Positions 32,362-63,019 of a DNA stretch of 64,000 bases are shown piece after piece (position 1 is the stretch's first letter; the number at the start of each line of letters is the position of its first letter). Under the pieces are notes generated by a model. That model searched no databases. It was not told the origin of the DNA and saw only the letters and a program-made list of their open reading frames with translations. Location: the NCBI RefSeq assembly GCF_016595415.1, contig NZ_JAENIO010000009.1, forward strand, positions 1 through 64,000. The letters run 5' to 3'. Made by a program: the position numbers and the translations under genes. This DNA is from Roseibacillus ishigakijimensis (GTDB lineage Bacteria > Verrucomicrobiota > Verrucomicrobiia > Verrucomicrobiales > Akkermansiaceae).

Positions 32362-33159
32362 ATGATAGGATTTCAAAAAACAGCGGTCATGCTCTCCTGG
32401 GGCATTTTGCTAGCAATTCATCCCGCCTTTGGCCAGTCCCAAGAACCGGGGCCAGAGGAAAAGTCTCCCCGCGAGGAGGCGGTTGCCGAGGCGGAAGAGG
32501 CTGCCGAGCAGGCGGAGGAAGCGGCCGAAGAGGCCAAGGTCGCGGCGGAAGAAGCGGCCCGCTTGGCTGAAAAGGCTGCCGCCCAGTTGGGAGAAGTCGA
32601 AGCGCAAGAGGGAGCCGAAAGCGCGGAAGAGGGTGCTGGCGAGGTGGTGGAGACGAGCGAAAGTGAAAAAGCGGCCGAGGCTGCGGAGGAAGAGCGCGAC
32701 AAAGCCAATGAAGTCGATCCCAGTGAAGTGCGCCAAATCCTTGGTTGGAAAGAATGGGTGCAGGTGGGCTCGGTGGCAGACAAGATGCGGGCCAAGCTGG
32801 ACAGTGGTGCGCGCACCTCGTCCCTGCATGCCGAGAATATTGAGGAGTTCGAGCGCGATGGTCGCCGCTGGGTGCAGTTCACCCTGGGTGAGCATCGCGA
32901 CAAAGACGCCAAGTCTGTTCTCATCAAAGCTCCCGTGCAACGGGTGGCGCGGGTGAAGAATACCGATGGCACCATGGAGCGCCGCTACGTGGTCGAGCTG
33001 AACTTCCAGGTAGGAGACCGTAAATTGCGGGATGAGTTCACGCTCAATGACCGTTCCGGCATGACCTGCCCGGTTCTCCTTGGGCGCAATGCTTTGCGAC
33101 ATCTTGGTTTTGTCGACTGTGGCCGGGTGGACCTCGCTCCCAAAAAGCTCTATAAGTGA
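32362..33159 (+). CDS. Retropepsin-like 'ATP-dependent zinc protease' family protein (RimB-like)
   Basis: Exported protein of 265 residues. A signal peptide (1-25, ending AFGQ) is followed by an 80-residue segment of Glu/Ala-rich helix (about 36-115). The C-terminal domain (125-265) belongs to the RimK/LysX-associated retropepsin-like family: LGWKEWVQV, the active-site-like LDSGARTSSLHA (DSGA 147-150), DRSGMTCPVLLGRNAL and FVDCGRVDL. It is the first gene of a three-gene cassette with a 7TM transglutaminase-like protein and an ATP-grasp ligase, a known association. A protease or esterase that trims the ligase product is inferred. The ATG at 32362 is chosen for its signal peptide. Confidence 0.78.
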   Translation: MIGFQKTAVMLSWGILLAIHPAFGQSQEPGPEEKSPREEAVAEAEEAAEQAEEAAEEAKVAAEEAARLAEKAAAQLGEVEAQEGAESAEEGAGEVVETSESEKAAEAAEEERDKANEVDPSEVRQILGWKEWVQVGSVADKMRAKLDSGARTSSLHAENIEEFERDGRRWVQFTLGEHRDKDAKSVLIKAPVQRVARVKNTDGTMERRYVVELNFQVGDRKLRDEFTLNDRSGMTCPVLLGRNALRHLGFVDCGRVDLAPKKLYK

Positions 33160-58902: not shown

Positions 58903-59628
58903 TTAGCCTTTGCGGCGGCGCAGCAGCAAGGCACTGCCGGCCAGTGCGAGGAGAGCGGTCGAGCTGGGCTCGGGCACGACGCTGAGGGAGAAGCCGTTGA
59001 GGGCAAAATAGCGGTTGCCGTTTTCGCTCACCACAAAGGAGACCTCGTCGGTGACCCCATCGGTCACAAAAGCGGTTTGCAGGAAGGGAACACTGCCGGT
59101 GCTGCTGGTGCGGGCTTCGCCAGCGCCGTTGTAGACGGTAGTGCCGGTGAAAATCGGGCTCCCCGCGTAGTTGACGGTGAGGGTGGAGCTTTGGCCGATG
59201 TTGTCCCCAATGCCATACATTGTCAGGGTCGCGGTTTGTCCAGCTCCCAGAGCAGCCAGGCCCGCAATCGTGATGGTGGGAGTGGCACCGGGCAGGCCGT
59301 TGGTGTCGACGTAGAGGTAGCCCTCCAGAATGGGGGTATTGTCCGTCCAGGCGGCGGCTCCGGCGGCGGATACGCTGGTGGCCTGGCCCGAGGCTGTCAC
59401 GGTGAAGGCTCCGAAAGTGGTGGAGTTGAGATCGCTAAAGGGGGCGGCAGTCGTGCCCGAGCGCTGCTCGAAGGCTCCTCCGGTCTCGAGGTTGGCATCG
59501 TTGGCCTGATAATCGGCATAGCTCGTTGCCACGGAATTGTTGTTGCGAGTGAAGTCGATCGCCATGGAAGCTCCCTGGACTTGAGGGAGAAGGGCTGGCA
59601 AGAGAACAAAAGAGAACGGGATTTTCAT
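58903..59628 (-). CDS. PEP-CTERM sorting-domain protein
   Basis: Secreted protein of 241 residues. Signal peptide MKIPFSFVLLPALLPQVQGA; a Thr/Ser/Ala/Gly-rich beta-type body (ASGQATSVSAAGAAAW, LGAGQTATLTMYGIGDN) follows with no enzyme motif. The C-terminal tag is canonical: VVPEPSSTALLALAGSALLLRRRKG, i.e. VPEPSS, hydrophobic helix, basic end. Expected to be surface sorted by exosortase. Its terminator and a 168-base upstream gap make it monocistronic. Confidence 0.87.
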   Translation of the reverse strand: MKIPFSFVLLPALLPQVQGASMAIDFTRNNNSVATSYADYQANDANLETGGAFEQRSGTTAAPFSDLNSTTFGAFTVTASGQATSVSAAGAAAWTDNTPILEGYLYVDTNGLPGATPTITIAGLAALGAGQTATLTMYGIGDNIGQSSTLTVNYAGSPIFTGTTVYNGAGEARTSSTGSVPFLQTAFVTDGVTDEVSFVVSENGNRYFALNGFSLSVVPEPSSTALLALAGSALLLRRRKG

Positions 59629-59796: not shown

Positions 59797-60510
59797 TCAG
59801 AGGGCAAGCAAAGCGCGTTGTGCCAGGAGACTGATGAGAAGGGCCCAGCCGAAGCTGAGGAAGGTGCCGATGATGATGTATTCGGTGATTTTCCGCTGGC
59901 TGGGATCCTTGATGTCACCGAAGCGGAGAATGGACTTGGCGGCCACCAGAAAGCCGATGCCGGCGGGCTGGCCTGCGATGATGAAGAGAAAAACCAGGGC
60001 TCGTTCGAGATAACCGATGATTTTTCCGCCGTCGGTGAGACCATTCAGCTCTTCGCCGATTTCCTTTGCAAAGGGTTTGACGGTGAGGCTGATGACCATT
60101 CCGCCCACCGGGATGAGGAGGAGGTAAACGGAGAGGAAGACGAGTGCTTGGGAGTAGAGCTGGAGAAAGGGAGGGGGAAAATTCGCCCAGAGCGTCCCCT
60201 TGATAGGGAAGAAGAGAGCCAACCAGGCGATGACGGCGAGGTGCGCGGCCTGATCGAGGAGGAAGGTGCGGAGGTTGTTCTGCAGATGGCGCACTTTGTA
60301 GGAATCGATGGCGTAATGGGTGAAGAAAATAACGAGGAGGGCGCTGATTTGCAGACGGCCGAGAAGGAGGAGGGAGAGTCCGGTGACGATGGCAACGTGC
60401 TTGAGCAGGACTTGCGGTTTTTCTTTAGTCCGTGCCATTTGGTCGCTCTGTAAGAGAAAATCTCCCAAGAGGTGCCCGGCGAGAAGGGCGAGAAAAGTGA
60501 AGAGAGTCAT
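59797..60510 (-). CDS. DUF3307 membrane protein
   Basis: Membrane protein of 237 residues with about six hydrophobic segments. The N-terminal LAGHLLGDFLLQSDQMARTKEKPQVLLKHVAIV is the DUF3307 signature; YAIDSYKVRHL also fits. Function unknown. It lies downstream of the SatD-like gene on the same strand, separated by 165 bases that hold the 28-bp repeat array, so the array is in its promoter or leader position. SatD-like and DUF3307 genes are, to my knowledge, often adjacent in Bacteroidetes. Confidence 0.82.
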   Translation of the reverse strand: MTLFTFLALLAGHLLGDFLLQSDQMARTKEKPQVLLKHVAIVTGLSLLLLGRLQISALLVIFFTHYAIDSYKVRHLQNNLRTFLLDQAAHLAVIAWLALFFPIKGTLWANFPPPFLQLYSQALVFLSVYLLLIPVGGMVISLTVKPFAKEIGEELNGLTDGGKIIGYLERALVFLFIIAGQPAGIGFLVAAKSILRFGDIKDPSQRKITEYIIIGTFLSFGWALLISLLAQRALLAL

Positions 60511-60543
60511 GGGCGGGGCTTCAGGTCAGGATGAATGGAGAAG

Positions 60544-60672
60544 GCAAAACCTTGTTCTTGTTTCTTGAAAGCAATTGATTTCGGTTGCTTTTTGAAAAGC
60601 AATCGATTTCGTTTGCAATTCAAAAGGCAAATGATTTCGTTTGCAATTCAAAAGGCAAATGATTTCGTTTGC
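60544..60672. repeat. Tandem 28-bp repeat array of GCAAA/TTTGC palindromes
   Basis: Copies begin at 60571, 60599, 60627 and 60655 with a strict 28-base period; the last is cut after 18 bases. Each core reads GCAAATGATTTCGTTTGC or a close variant, whose ends GCAAA and TTTGC are complementary, followed by a 10-base linker (AATTCAAAAG in copies 2 and 3). Copies 3 and 4 have identical cores. A degenerate further copy may occupy 60544-60570. The array starts 3 bases past the SatD-like stop and precedes the DUF3307 gene. It looks like iterated operator sites. Confidence 0.85.
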
Positions 60673-60675
60673 ATT

Positions 60676-61341
60676 TTAGGGGTTGGGAAAAGTTTTTTCA
60701 AAGACCTGCACCACCTGTTCCAGGACTGAGCCCTGTGCGCTGTCCAGGGTGGCGGTCACGTTCTGGCGACTGGTTCCCAATTGCCGACTGATTTCCTCGT
60801 GGGTGAGATCGGCGGGATGGAGCGCGAGGGTCATCATTTCGGCTTGGCGTCGCGACCAGCGATTGAGAATGCTGTCGCAAAGTTGGCACACCACGGGCAG
60901 CCAGTGATGGAGTTGGCCGTCACGTTCCCGCGCGATGGCCGCCGTTAGATTGACCTTGGGTGATAGCTTGTCCAAAGCGTGACCCGACAAGAGGAAGGCC
61001 TCTCCGCTGGAACGCGAGATGAGCTCGCGATCGAGATGATCAACCGCGCCCAGTCCGATGGCGGTGCGGGTATCGGACAGGCCCTGGCTGATGAGGTGGG
61101 CCCGGAGAAAGAGAACGGCCCGGAGGGCAAAGCGGGCTTGCTCCAGAGCGGCTTGCCAACTGTCTCCCCGGAAAAAATCGACTTCTCCGGCCACGACCGG
61201 AGAAGTCGGAGAATCCCAGGTTGCCAACTCCGCAAAGGCCTCGCTGATCTGGGCGCGAACGGTTTCCAGTTCGTCGGGCGAGAGCTGCGAGGACTTGATG
61301 AGGTCGCCGGTGAGAACGGCAACAAAGGGAGTTTCGGCCAT
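60676..61341 (-). CDS. SatD-family-like regulator with C-terminal HTH
   Basis: Protein of 221 residues. The N-terminal two thirds (PFVAVLTGDLIKSSQLSP, VDFFRGDSWQAAL, TRTAIGLGAVDHL, SGEAFLLSGHALD) resemble the SatD family, a domain that looks related to nucleotide cyclase-type folds. The C-terminal 60 residues carry a helix-turn-helix: LTHEEISRQLGTSRQNVTATLDSA. It is a likely DNA-binding regulator, perhaps of the adjacent palindromic array. It starts 10 bases after the PhoD-like phosphatase stop and precedes DUF3307. No target is known. Confidence 0.72.
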   Translation of the reverse strand: MAETPFVAVLTGDLIKSSQLSPDELETVRAQISEAFAELATWDSPTSPVVAGEVDFFRGDSWQAALEQARFALRAVLFLRAHLISQGLSDTRTAIGLGAVDHLDRELISRSSGEAFLLSGHALDKLSPKVNLTAAIARERDGQLHHWLPVVCQLCDSILNRWSRRQAEMMTLALHPADLTHEEISRQLGTSRQNVTATLDSAQGSVLEQVVQVFEKTFPNP

Positions 61342-61351
61342 TGCCGCGAGC

Positions 61352-63019
61352 CTAGTCGAGCGAGATGGTCTTTGGCCAGCCGGGAAACTGTTCCGCGCTT
61401 TCTTCCGTCAAATCGGCAAAACGGGGCCAGCACTCGAAGGTGACATCTTTGTCCTCTTTGTGGAAGCGGATGAGGCCCCAGCCATCGCCCCAGCCCTCGG
61501 GGTCGAATTTGCCTGCATTGCGTTGGCTCGGGTCGTTGGTGGGATTGGCGTAGGCATACATGGTGATCTTGTTGCCAAAGCCGTCCTGGTAATCACCCAC
61601 CCAGGGGAGGGGAGAATTGGCGGGAGGGTTGCCTCCGGCTTTCTCGTCCTCCGGCCACCACCAGCGGCCGTAGTAGGTGTTGACGATGGCCGGGACTACA
61701 AAGGCCCAGGGGCCGTCCCCATACTCGTCGATGCCATGCTTGATGAGGGTGGAGAGGTGCTGGTCGCCAGCAATGTGCACCGCATTGGCCTTTTGGATGA
61801 GCCGAAGAGCTTCGTTGCGGGGAGTCTGTGGCCAGCCATTGGAATCCATGTCGGCATGGAGGCGGTTTTGCGGTGAACCGTGGAGGTGGGCGCCGCCACA
61901 GAAGCCGGTCTGCGAGAGGACGGCCTTCATGGAAACGCCCTCGGTGTCGTCGGACCAATCTTCCAGGAAGTAAAGCTGGCGATCGCCGAGGAGCTTGAGC
62001 CCCGGCACATCGACCACTTGGGGATCGTAGTTTTCATCCCGGATATGGTCGGGACGGGGCCCCTTCATGGGATGGCGATCCTTGGGTCCGGTCTTGAACT
62101 TGCGGTCTTCCAAGATGGCGAAATCAATCCCCCCGACGAGGAGATTGGTGTAGTAAACGCCGATGCCCTGCTCCACCGGGGTGGGATCGTAGGGGTCGGG
62201 CAAGTGGCCGCACTGCTGCCGCTCCACCATCTGGACATACTCGGGGTGGAAGAAGTAGCCGCCATCGGAGCCCGCAGGAAGCAGGCATTTTTTCCCTCCT
62301 TCGCCCCAGAGATTGCCCTGCCCGATGTCGTGGTCGTCCGGAATGGTGACGCAGGGGCGGTTGCGGAAGAGCTCTTTGAAGGCCAGACCGAATTTGAGCC
62401 AGGCGGCGGTGTGCTGGCGGTGGTCGTAAGACTGATCGCCGGCGAAGAAAATCAGGTCGGGATCCACCGCGTTGATGTTGCGGGTGTATTCCGGACGCAG
62501 ACCCCGGTCGCGATTGGAGTTGCAGGAGAGCGCGGCGACCGTGATGTCCTTTTTGCCCACTGGATCCTTGCGGATGAGACCTTCGAAGCTCGCTTTCGCG
62601 CCATGGCGCAGACGATACTTCACGTCCTTCGTCATCTCCCAATCGGCGATGCGGAAGCTCGTGCACCAGCCGAGATCGTTGACCTCTTGACGGGCGATTT
62701 CAACCCATTGGCCCTCGCGCTCGACTTCCAGCCGCACTTCGCGCGTTTCTTCCGGGTAGAGGGGATAGAGCTGGGCACTCAGCTTGAGCACGCCCTGATG
62801 GGTGGTGTAGATTCCGAAAGCGACCACCTCATCGCGAGGCACCCGCAAATCGATGATATCGGTCTCTTTGCGATTCCACCAGTCGTTGGTAGCAAGGGAA
62901 TCTTCTCCTTTCTCAAAAGGCGCTTTGACGGGGGGCTCGCCACGATCAACTTCAGCGCCTAATGGGGAGGTCAAAATCCAGGCTAGAGGCAGAAAGGTTA
63001 ATTTCATCGTTAATTTCAT
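61352..63019 (-). CDS. PhoD-like (alkaline phosphatase D family) secreted phosphatase
   Basis: Secreted metallophosphatase of 555 residues. A signal peptide covers about residues 1-22. Metal-binding motifs are visible: ALSCNSNRDRG, FFAGDQSYDHRQ, VTIPDDHDIGQGNLWGEGG, and AVHIAGDQHLSTLIKHG. These fit the PhoD family, calcium/iron-dependent phosphatases or phosphodiesterases active at the cell surface. Substrate unknown. Two ATGs (63019 and 63007) lie in a duplicated 12-base sequence; either could start. It is the first gene of the unit with the SatD-like and DUF3307 genes. Confidence 0.85.
   Translation of the reverse strand: MKLTMKLTFLPLAWILTSPLGAEVDRGEPPVKAPFEKGEDSLATNDWWNRKETDIIDLRVPRDEVVAFGIYTTHQGVLKLSAQLYPLYPEETREVRLEVEREGQWVEIARQEVNDLGWCTSFRIADWEMTKDVKYRLRHGAKASFEGLIRKDPVGKKDITVAALSCNSNRDRGLRPEYTRNINAVDPDLIFFAGDQSYDHRQHTAAWLKFGLAFKELFRNRPCVTIPDDHDIGQGNLWGEGGKKCLLPAGSDGGYFFHPEYVQMVERQQCGHLPDPYDPTPVEQGIGVYYTNLLVGGIDFAILEDRKFKTGPKDRHPMKGPRPDHIRDENYDPQVVDVPGLKLLGDRQLYFLEDWSDDTEGVSMKAVLSQTGFCGGAHLHGSPQNRLHADMDSNGWPQTPRNEALRLIQKANAVHIAGDQHLSTLIKHGIDEYGDGPWAFVVPAIVNTYYGRWWWPEDEKAGGNPPANSPLPWVGDYQDGFGNKITMYAYANPTNDPSQRNAGKFDPEGWGDGWGLIRFHKEDKDVTFECWPRFADLTEESAEQFPGWPKTISLD

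Follow-up and report, generated by a model that had tools for sequence, protein, structure and literature searches.

The locus and its palindrome array

The 64,000-bp window analysed here, positions 1 to 64,000 of contig NZ_JAENIO010000009.1 of Roseibacillus ishigakijimensis, carries a pair of minus-strand genes separated by regularly spaced palindromes, and it is this pair and its array that concern us. The first gene (60676..61341) encodes a SatD-related regulator with an N-terminal class III cyclase-like domain (approximately residues 1-160) and a C-terminal helix-turn-helix (HTH); the second (59797..60510) encodes a DUF3307 predicted membrane protein and is presumed to be the controlled gene. 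Palindromes fill most of the gap between them. The unit is an 18-bp core, not assigned a strand. Palindrome 1 (60655..60672), which can be written GCAAA-8-TTTGC, lies nearest the SatD-related gene, followed by palindrome 2 (60627..60644), whose 18-bp core is the same, palindrome 3 (60599..60616) and palindrome 4 (60571..60588). The steps among these four (60571-60672) are exactly 28, 28 and 28; a decayed fifth copy (60544..60561) follows at a step of 27, i.e. one base out of step. A preliminary description, made from the letters of the window, had noted four copies at exact 28-base spacing with complementary GCAAA/TTTGC ends, identical cores in two of them (its copies 3 and 4, starting at 60627 and 60655), and a position between an HTH gene and a DUF3307 gene on the same strand, and all of this was found as described.

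Tandem Repeats Finder reports the array with period 28, 3.8 copies, 88% matches and a score of 142, the top of the window table. A geometry score that takes the four palindromes jointly (8 half-sites of 5 bases, maximum 40) gives 37 for the gap, against a mean of 22.9 and a maximum of 29 in 1000 dinucleotide shuffles of the gap, and a maximum of 27 elsewhere (200 stretches of 400 bases, placed every 300 bases in the first 60 kb). A CRISPR (clustered regularly interspaced short palindromic repeat) array was considered and rejected, as the 28-bp units stand head to tail, without unique spacers between repeats. A promoter-like TTGAAA-17-TAAAAT on the minus strand (60673..60701), a consensus match only, abuts palindrome 1; one such match was found in 60400-61500 where 0.2 were expected, and this site (60701-60673), going by its letters, would place the transcription start within the array.

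Across the whole genome (4.14 Mb), the motif at up to 2 mismatches finds the four array copies and one other place. The latter is a related palindrome pair with 28-bp spacing (L011:5117-5162, C124:39116-39161 of the same genome), located where an S24-type repressor gene meets a small open reading frame with signal-peptide-like features, with an integrase-like gene near; it is the sole off-locus match that good at two mismatches, and is possibly a second target or chance. With up to three mismatches allowed, however, a reversed control pattern gave 2 matches forward and 2 reverse.

Array geometry and position across loci

A search for the exact motif of the window is too narrow, because half-sites change between lineages (GCAACC/GGTTGC, GCAAGC/GCTTGC, ACAGCC/GGCTGT, ATAGCC/GGCTAT and TCACCC/GGGTGA, the last forming eight palindromes at locus L107), and palindrome geometry was scored in its place. 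The preliminary description had proposed looking for the same GCAAA/TTTGC sites beside such gene pairs in other Verrucomicrobiota genomes; periodic palindromes are mostly there, with letters that differ between lineages, and a search for these letters alone would miss most arrays. Ten duplicates were left out of the locus set, together with loci having no regulator or DUF3307 gene in the stretch (L011, L033, L079, L088, L100, L111, L115 and L117, several of them at contig ends), leaving 92, and removal of four further duplicates (L023, L024, L104, L066) left 88. The detector scores two palindromes with a shared half-site and calls an array at 22 or more of 24, periods 27-30 being allowed; this threshold was chosen after the first scoring had been seen, and was then unchanged for the hold-out. 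Detection covered two places per locus, the gap and the region upstream of the first gene, plus the DUF3307 coding sequence as a control.

Among palindromes with arms of at least 5, centre-to-centre distances peak at 14/14.5 and 28/29 bp. A pair at such spacing was present in 51 of 68 gaps, compared with a mean of 3.0 and a maximum of 8 in shuffles (n = 100). The place of the array, gap or upstream, depends on the room between the genes: where the gap is at least 40 bp, the array is in the gap at 52 of 66 loci and upstream of the first gene at 2 of 64, and where the gap is shorter than 40 bp or the genes overlap, it is upstream of the first gene at 20 of 22. Altogether 74 of the 88 loci have an array before DUF3307 or before the pair. 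Shuffles expect arrays in 0.02 to 0.12 loci, and the DUF3307 coding control gave 0/66 and 0/22. Arrays carry 2 to 8 palindromes, and of their 169 steps, 101 are 29 and 42 are 28, counts that began from pairs at step 28/29 and so lean that way; with the detector, which allowed other periods, 27 or 30 occurred in 3 of 72 arrays (52 plus 20), the others being 28 or 29.

The hold-out consisted of 80 new loci, three plasmid loci included, 78 of them paired (not L148 and L199). After dropping loci with at least 70% identity to training or to each other, 52 remained, 45 with a usable site. The array is upstream in 33 of 43 short-gap loci; among the nine long-gap loci, it is in the gap in 4 and upstream in 2. 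The detector would also have accepted 27 and 30, yet each of the 39 arrays it called has a period of 28 or 29; the coding control gave 0/52.

The gaps of L034, L108 and L109 hold two palindrome kinds (in L034, a CCGATA-type and a GCAAGC-type), which could mean that an old array persists next to a younger one, or that a second protein is involved.

Half-site letters and the recognition helix

In the window, the codons of residues 190-203 (60733..60774, minus strand) include the recognition helix of the HTH, with R192, Q193, N194 and A197, whose positions covary with half-site bases. The regulator alignment (A3) holds 86 of 87 listed proteins (L109 omitted; L113 and L114 were too short), and a DUF3307 alignment (A4) holds 78 of 84. 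Covariation was measured at 81 of the 86 loci, those with a score of at least 20, using a register choice that favoured C at -8 and A at -7; this bonus was removed for the hold-out rule test and the tree contrasts.

Residue 192 is R with G at base -9, and Q or K with A; residue 193 is Q with C at base -8, and P, A, S or V mostly with T. At residue 194, A or N goes mostly with A at base -6, and T mostly with G, while K at residue 197 goes mostly with C at base -5, and D, E or Q with G. The z scores of these pairs are 18.1, 16.7, 12.1 and 10.8 in the same order, placing all four in the top six of 1266 residue-base pairs; the other two pair base -8 with W62 and T91, residues of the N-terminal domain. 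Thinning to 40% identity (34 loci) leaves z at 8.1, 6.3, 3.7 and 4.5 for residues 192, 193, 194 and 197, and odds ratios stratified by overall identity are 49 for 193, 10.9 for 192, 7.8 for 197 and 6.1 for 194.

Independent contrasts were drawn on a tree of the regulator N-terminal domain alone (126 tips). Base changes in the predicted direction outnumber opposite ones by 9:0 for residue 192, 4:1 for 193, 10:1 for 194 and 12:0 for 197. A scan of 716 residue-base combinations put 197/-5, 191/-6 and 194/-6 at the top (two-sided p 0.001 to 0.004, uncorrected). In the hold-out (45 sites), with rules fixed beforehand, 63, 5, 0 and 1 of 2000 shuffles reach the accuracy of the rules for residues 192, 193, 194 and 197, respectively. 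Accuracy is 0.62 against 0.35 in shuffles at base -6, 0.47 against 0.25 at -5 and 0.67 against 0.50 at -8; at -9 it is barely above them (0.67 against 0.61). The covariation holds on the tree for three of the four helix residues, with support from the hold-out that is weak for residue 192.

Predicted proteins

The regulator has 221 residues, and its AlphaFold2 model, built on the alignment of 86 sequences, has a mean predicted local distance difference test score (pLDDT) of 96. All five Foldseek matches of the model at E <= 0.001 are cyclases, the best being Rv1900c (E 4.6e-4, query TM 0.44, to the predicted N-terminal domain). Superposition of that domain gives Z 10.7 with the light-regulated cyclase 5mbg (135 residues, 3.1 Å) and Z 10.1 with Ma1120 (4wp8; 130 residues, 2.9 Å). 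GGDEF, Cas10/Cmr2 and GTP cyclohydrolase III domains score nearly level with the cyclases, and what the model predicts is the cyclase fold class, not an assigned subfamily. Residues D13 and D60 are present in 138 of 138 regulator sequences and align by profile match to aspartates of Ma1120, which we take to be the metal-binding aspartates of class III cyclases. The HTH is similar by profile to the zinc transport transcriptional regulator 5yhz (E 0.0011, over residues 155-205) and to AdcR 3tgn (E 0.039).

The label 'SatD-like' of the preliminary description fits the family better than its member here: the window regulator has no match to Pfam SatD (PF16264) at E <= 1, while 21 of the 86 aligned relatives match it at E <= 0.01 (best E 1.5e-12), and for this reason we call it SatD-related. 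The DUF3307 assignment proved sound, with a match to PF11750 at E 3.9e-19 (69.4 bits against a gathering score of 23). The DUF3307 protein is predicted to be all-helical (mean pLDDT 95.5), and its fold has no Foldseek match at E <= 0.001; a likeness to a TRPV3 segment (best VIA Z 6.2, 83 residues, 3.4 Å) was too weak for use.

Distribution of the gene pair

From the 152 related stretches that a scan of named genomes gave, the best 80 were retained, covering many phyla; DUF3307 is also present in 77 of these 80 regulator loci. The closest relative of the window regulator is in Roseibacillus persicicus (61%). The next matches, at 41-45%, carry Thermodesulfobacteriota, KSB1, Chitinivibrionales, Caldithrix and Alphaproteobacteria labels and are mostly metagenome bins, and a Verrucomicrobiota (Opitutia) genome at 43% ranks below them. 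Among 58 near genomes, the window's own included, 3 have the regulator (E <= 0.001), all of one genus. Because other-phylum matches rank above Opitutia and only one near genus matches, the distribution, as far as sequence similarity goes, suggests horizontal movement. Counting the starting genome each time, the window's phylum has the regulator in 23 of 387 genomes. For the phylum to which a Bacteroidales genome belongs the count is 101 of 345 sampled genomes; elsewhere the regulator is patchy, with 3 of 337 in the class that includes a Brevundimonas genome and 7 of 321 in that of an Idiomarina genome. The first rate is not strictly comparable with the other three, since query alignments and E limits differ.

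The nearest neighbours of the pair vary, with 121 Pfam families represented in 140 flanking proteins, and many are housekeeping genes; the commonest families are Fe-S assembly proteins (13/140 and 9/140). In the same 140 proteins, 58 PADLOC families find matches at E <= 1e-8, an uncontrolled count from which we draw no conclusion on defence. One regulator query matched 9 of 72,556 plasmid records. On pEC34A, a mobilizable Escherichia coli plasmid of 3770 bp, the pair (L122:1792-3481) is the main cargo, the other annotated cargo being Rop, MobA and one small hypothetical protein, and palindromes upstream of the regulator reach a detector score of 21, just below threshold; the regulator is also matched by five records of that length (3770 bp) from Klebsiella pneumoniae. 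Passages from one paper on pEC34A do not mention DUF3307. On a Sphingomonas insulae plasmid (L123:2983-6630), the pair is next to two genes whose annotations are Pycsar effector family protein and cyclase, with a gene annotated as a TIR-domain protein on the opposite side.

The autonomous two-gene circuit proposed at the outset is supported by the 77 of 80 loci, the mixed neighbours and the plasmid copies. Its suggested extension by the upstream PhoD-like phosphatase is not: that gene stands next to the pair here and in R. persicicus, but PhoD is not among the 25 flanking Pfam families listed, and the third genome of the genus with the pair has a different upstream neighbour.

Phages gave no match to the regulator of L061 (tblastn, 50,697 records), DUF3307 having not been searched there, and a viral contig scan yielded 4 pattern matches with no relative among them. 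Jumbo phage RsoM2USA is described, in an excerpt of its report, as encoding a 134-aa protein, ORF187, whose best match is a DUF3307 protein (PMC8504454); any action of ORF187 against the bacterial pair would be guesswork.

Interpretation and alternatives

On these comparisons of sequence, the array is very probably the multi-site operator of the SatD-related protein, with DUF3307 as the presumed controlled gene and the cyclase-like domain as a likely nucleotide switch. The earlier proposal that the adjacent HTH regulator binds the array and controls DUF3307 thereby gains strong comparative support, from an array position that follows gene arrangement and from the helix-base covariation. The C-terminal HTH would read each half-site, as the covariation indicates; the symmetry points to one dimer per 18-bp palindrome, and the conserved step of 28 or 29 bp to adjacent dimers that touch and may bind cooperatively along the array. 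In the window, bound protein would most likely block DUF3307 transcription, because the promoter-like site, where the regulator gene ends, lies immediately upstream of the array, and DUF3307 comes after it. Where the genes overlap or nearly so, the regulator would also control itself, because the array is upstream of both. Class III nucleotidyl cyclases have their active site at the dimer interface, and since the N-terminal domain resembles them, its binding or making of a nucleotide would be the most likely switch loosening or tightening DNA binding. The predicted fold, together with the presence of both presumed metal aspartates in every regulator sequence, makes a nucleotide the likely signal.

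Several results weigh against this interpretation. The case that the preliminary description named as refuting, the same pair without repeats, was mostly not found, yet 14 of the 66 gap loci have no detected array in the gap (2 of these have an upstream array), 2 of the 22 short-gap loci and 13 of the 52 hold-out loci are under the detection threshold in the expected place; one of all these loci, L013, belongs to the genus of the window (21 of 24, step 30). W62, outside the HTH, covaries with base -8 as strongly as any helix residue (z 18.1; 13.4 and 7.0 at 50% and 40% thinning; stratified odds ratio 23.6), a correlation that we read as common descent because the tree gives one independent contrast only. 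Many contrasts have no base change (5/14 for residue 192, 2/7 for 193, 13/24 for 194 and 3/15 for 197), and for residue 193 taken by itself the contrasts fall short of significance (4:1, p 0.19). In the hold-out, a constant guess equals the rule at base -8 (0.69 against 0.67) and comes near it at base -9 (0.64 against 0.67), and some loci violate the rules, e.g. L161 and L124; for some of these, the sites may have been read in the wrong register. Promoter placement in the window comes from one consensus match, and in a scan for Bacteroidota-type promoters, 13 of 48 overlap the array.

A wider role for the pair can be pictured, namely a mobile nucleotide-signalling cassette that serves in defence or stress in a Pycsar-like way and has its regulator built in. 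A DNA-bound cyclase-like enzyme, sitting on its own operator array, would sense a nucleotide change, e.g. on phage infection, and by releasing the DNA, making a messenger or both, would switch on the DUF3307 membrane effector. We hold this to be rather unlikely, though worth keeping in mind. Like Pycsar, which consists of a cyclase and a membrane effector, the pair sets a cyclase-like fold beside a membrane protein, and one plasmid copy adjoins an annotated Pycsar effector family gene and an annotated cyclase gene; unlike Pycsar, the window regulator has an HTH and an operator array, and DUF3307 has no clear solved-structure match. The window regulator matches none of the PADLOC defence families at E <= 0.01. 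Among its relatives, nine PADLOC families each match 1 of 86 members at this limit (best E 0.0008), and the Effector (2TM) model is matched weakly by one of the 86 (E 0.0062). Defence is not our verdict, because many of the flanking genes are housekeeping.

Iterated palindromes with an HTH protein also resemble partition or replication sites, and the regulator could bind the array for DNA maintenance, in the manner of iterons or a centromere, instead of for transcription. The presence of the pair on plasmids fits this, as does a weak profile similarity to the HTHs of Spo0J and nucleoid occlusion proteins (E 0.2 to 0.63). We nevertheless find it quite improbable: in the two places and the coding control looked at, detected arrays stand before DUF3307 or before the pair, as operators do, the single plasmid query met few records (9 of the 72,556), and replication and partition families are absent from the 25 commonest flanking families listed.

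Quite improbable, too, is a role of the palindromes as RNA hairpins that form in the intergenic transcript and tune DUF3307 translation, decay or termination. Most gap-locus arrays do lie between two same-strand genes, and their arms could pair in RNA. Arm mismatches, however, show no G:U excess (T:G 45 against C:A 57; G:T 19 against A:C 21), and where the genes overlap or nearly so, the array is upstream of the first gene. Because of these two points, we favour an operator in duplex DNA over RNA; moreover, hairpins have no need for a fixed 28/29-bp step, and half-site letters that follow the HTH recognition helix speak for a protein reader. A functionless array arising by neutral local tandem duplication has next to no probability, since, although the identical cores of palindromes 1 and 2 may mark a recent duplication here, the same architecture accompanies the same gene pair across phyla in unrelated letters, and array positions (first set and hold-out) and tree contrasts contradict it.

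Relation to known systems

Regulators that act on an operator array next to their own gene are known. AdcR/ZitR-type zinc-transport regulators, to which the HTH is similar, belong to the MarR family and bind a palindromic operator; here, by difference, a cyclase-like domain accompanies the HTH, and the operator is an array whose 2 to 8 palindromes follow one another every 28/29 bp. Class III nucleotidyl cyclases (5mbg, Ma1120, Rv1900c) share the predicted fold and the two invariant aspartates, but the window protein has no Pfam cyclase match. The name SatD, to which the likeness is through relatives of the window protein, carries an acid-tolerance role as annotation in one paper (PMC10326533), whose passages on it say nothing of an HTH, a DUF3307 partner or an operator array.

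What is new is the joining of a cyclase-like domain to an HTH, an array of several palindromes at 28/29 bp that is shared across phyla, and a partly readable helix-to-base code, all at an unnamed gene pair. No description of the array or the gene pair was found in the open-access literature searched, which covers part of the literature. These results make of an unnamed gene pair a regulatory circuit that can be tested and whose protein-DNA code can in part be read, and they link a cyclase-like domain directly to DNA binding. In a new genome, the code suggests which half-site its regulator should bind, and the array is a ready reporter for finding the signal.

Other features of the window

Beyond the pair, a gene for a PEP-CTERM-motif protein (58903-59628) lies between DUF3307 and a SIS-CBS gene, which in the R. 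persicicus locus directly follows DUF3307. The second-highest tandem repeat score in the window belongs to a 21-bp repeat of 3.3 copies at 32488-32557, which suggests coding sequence because its period is a multiple of three.
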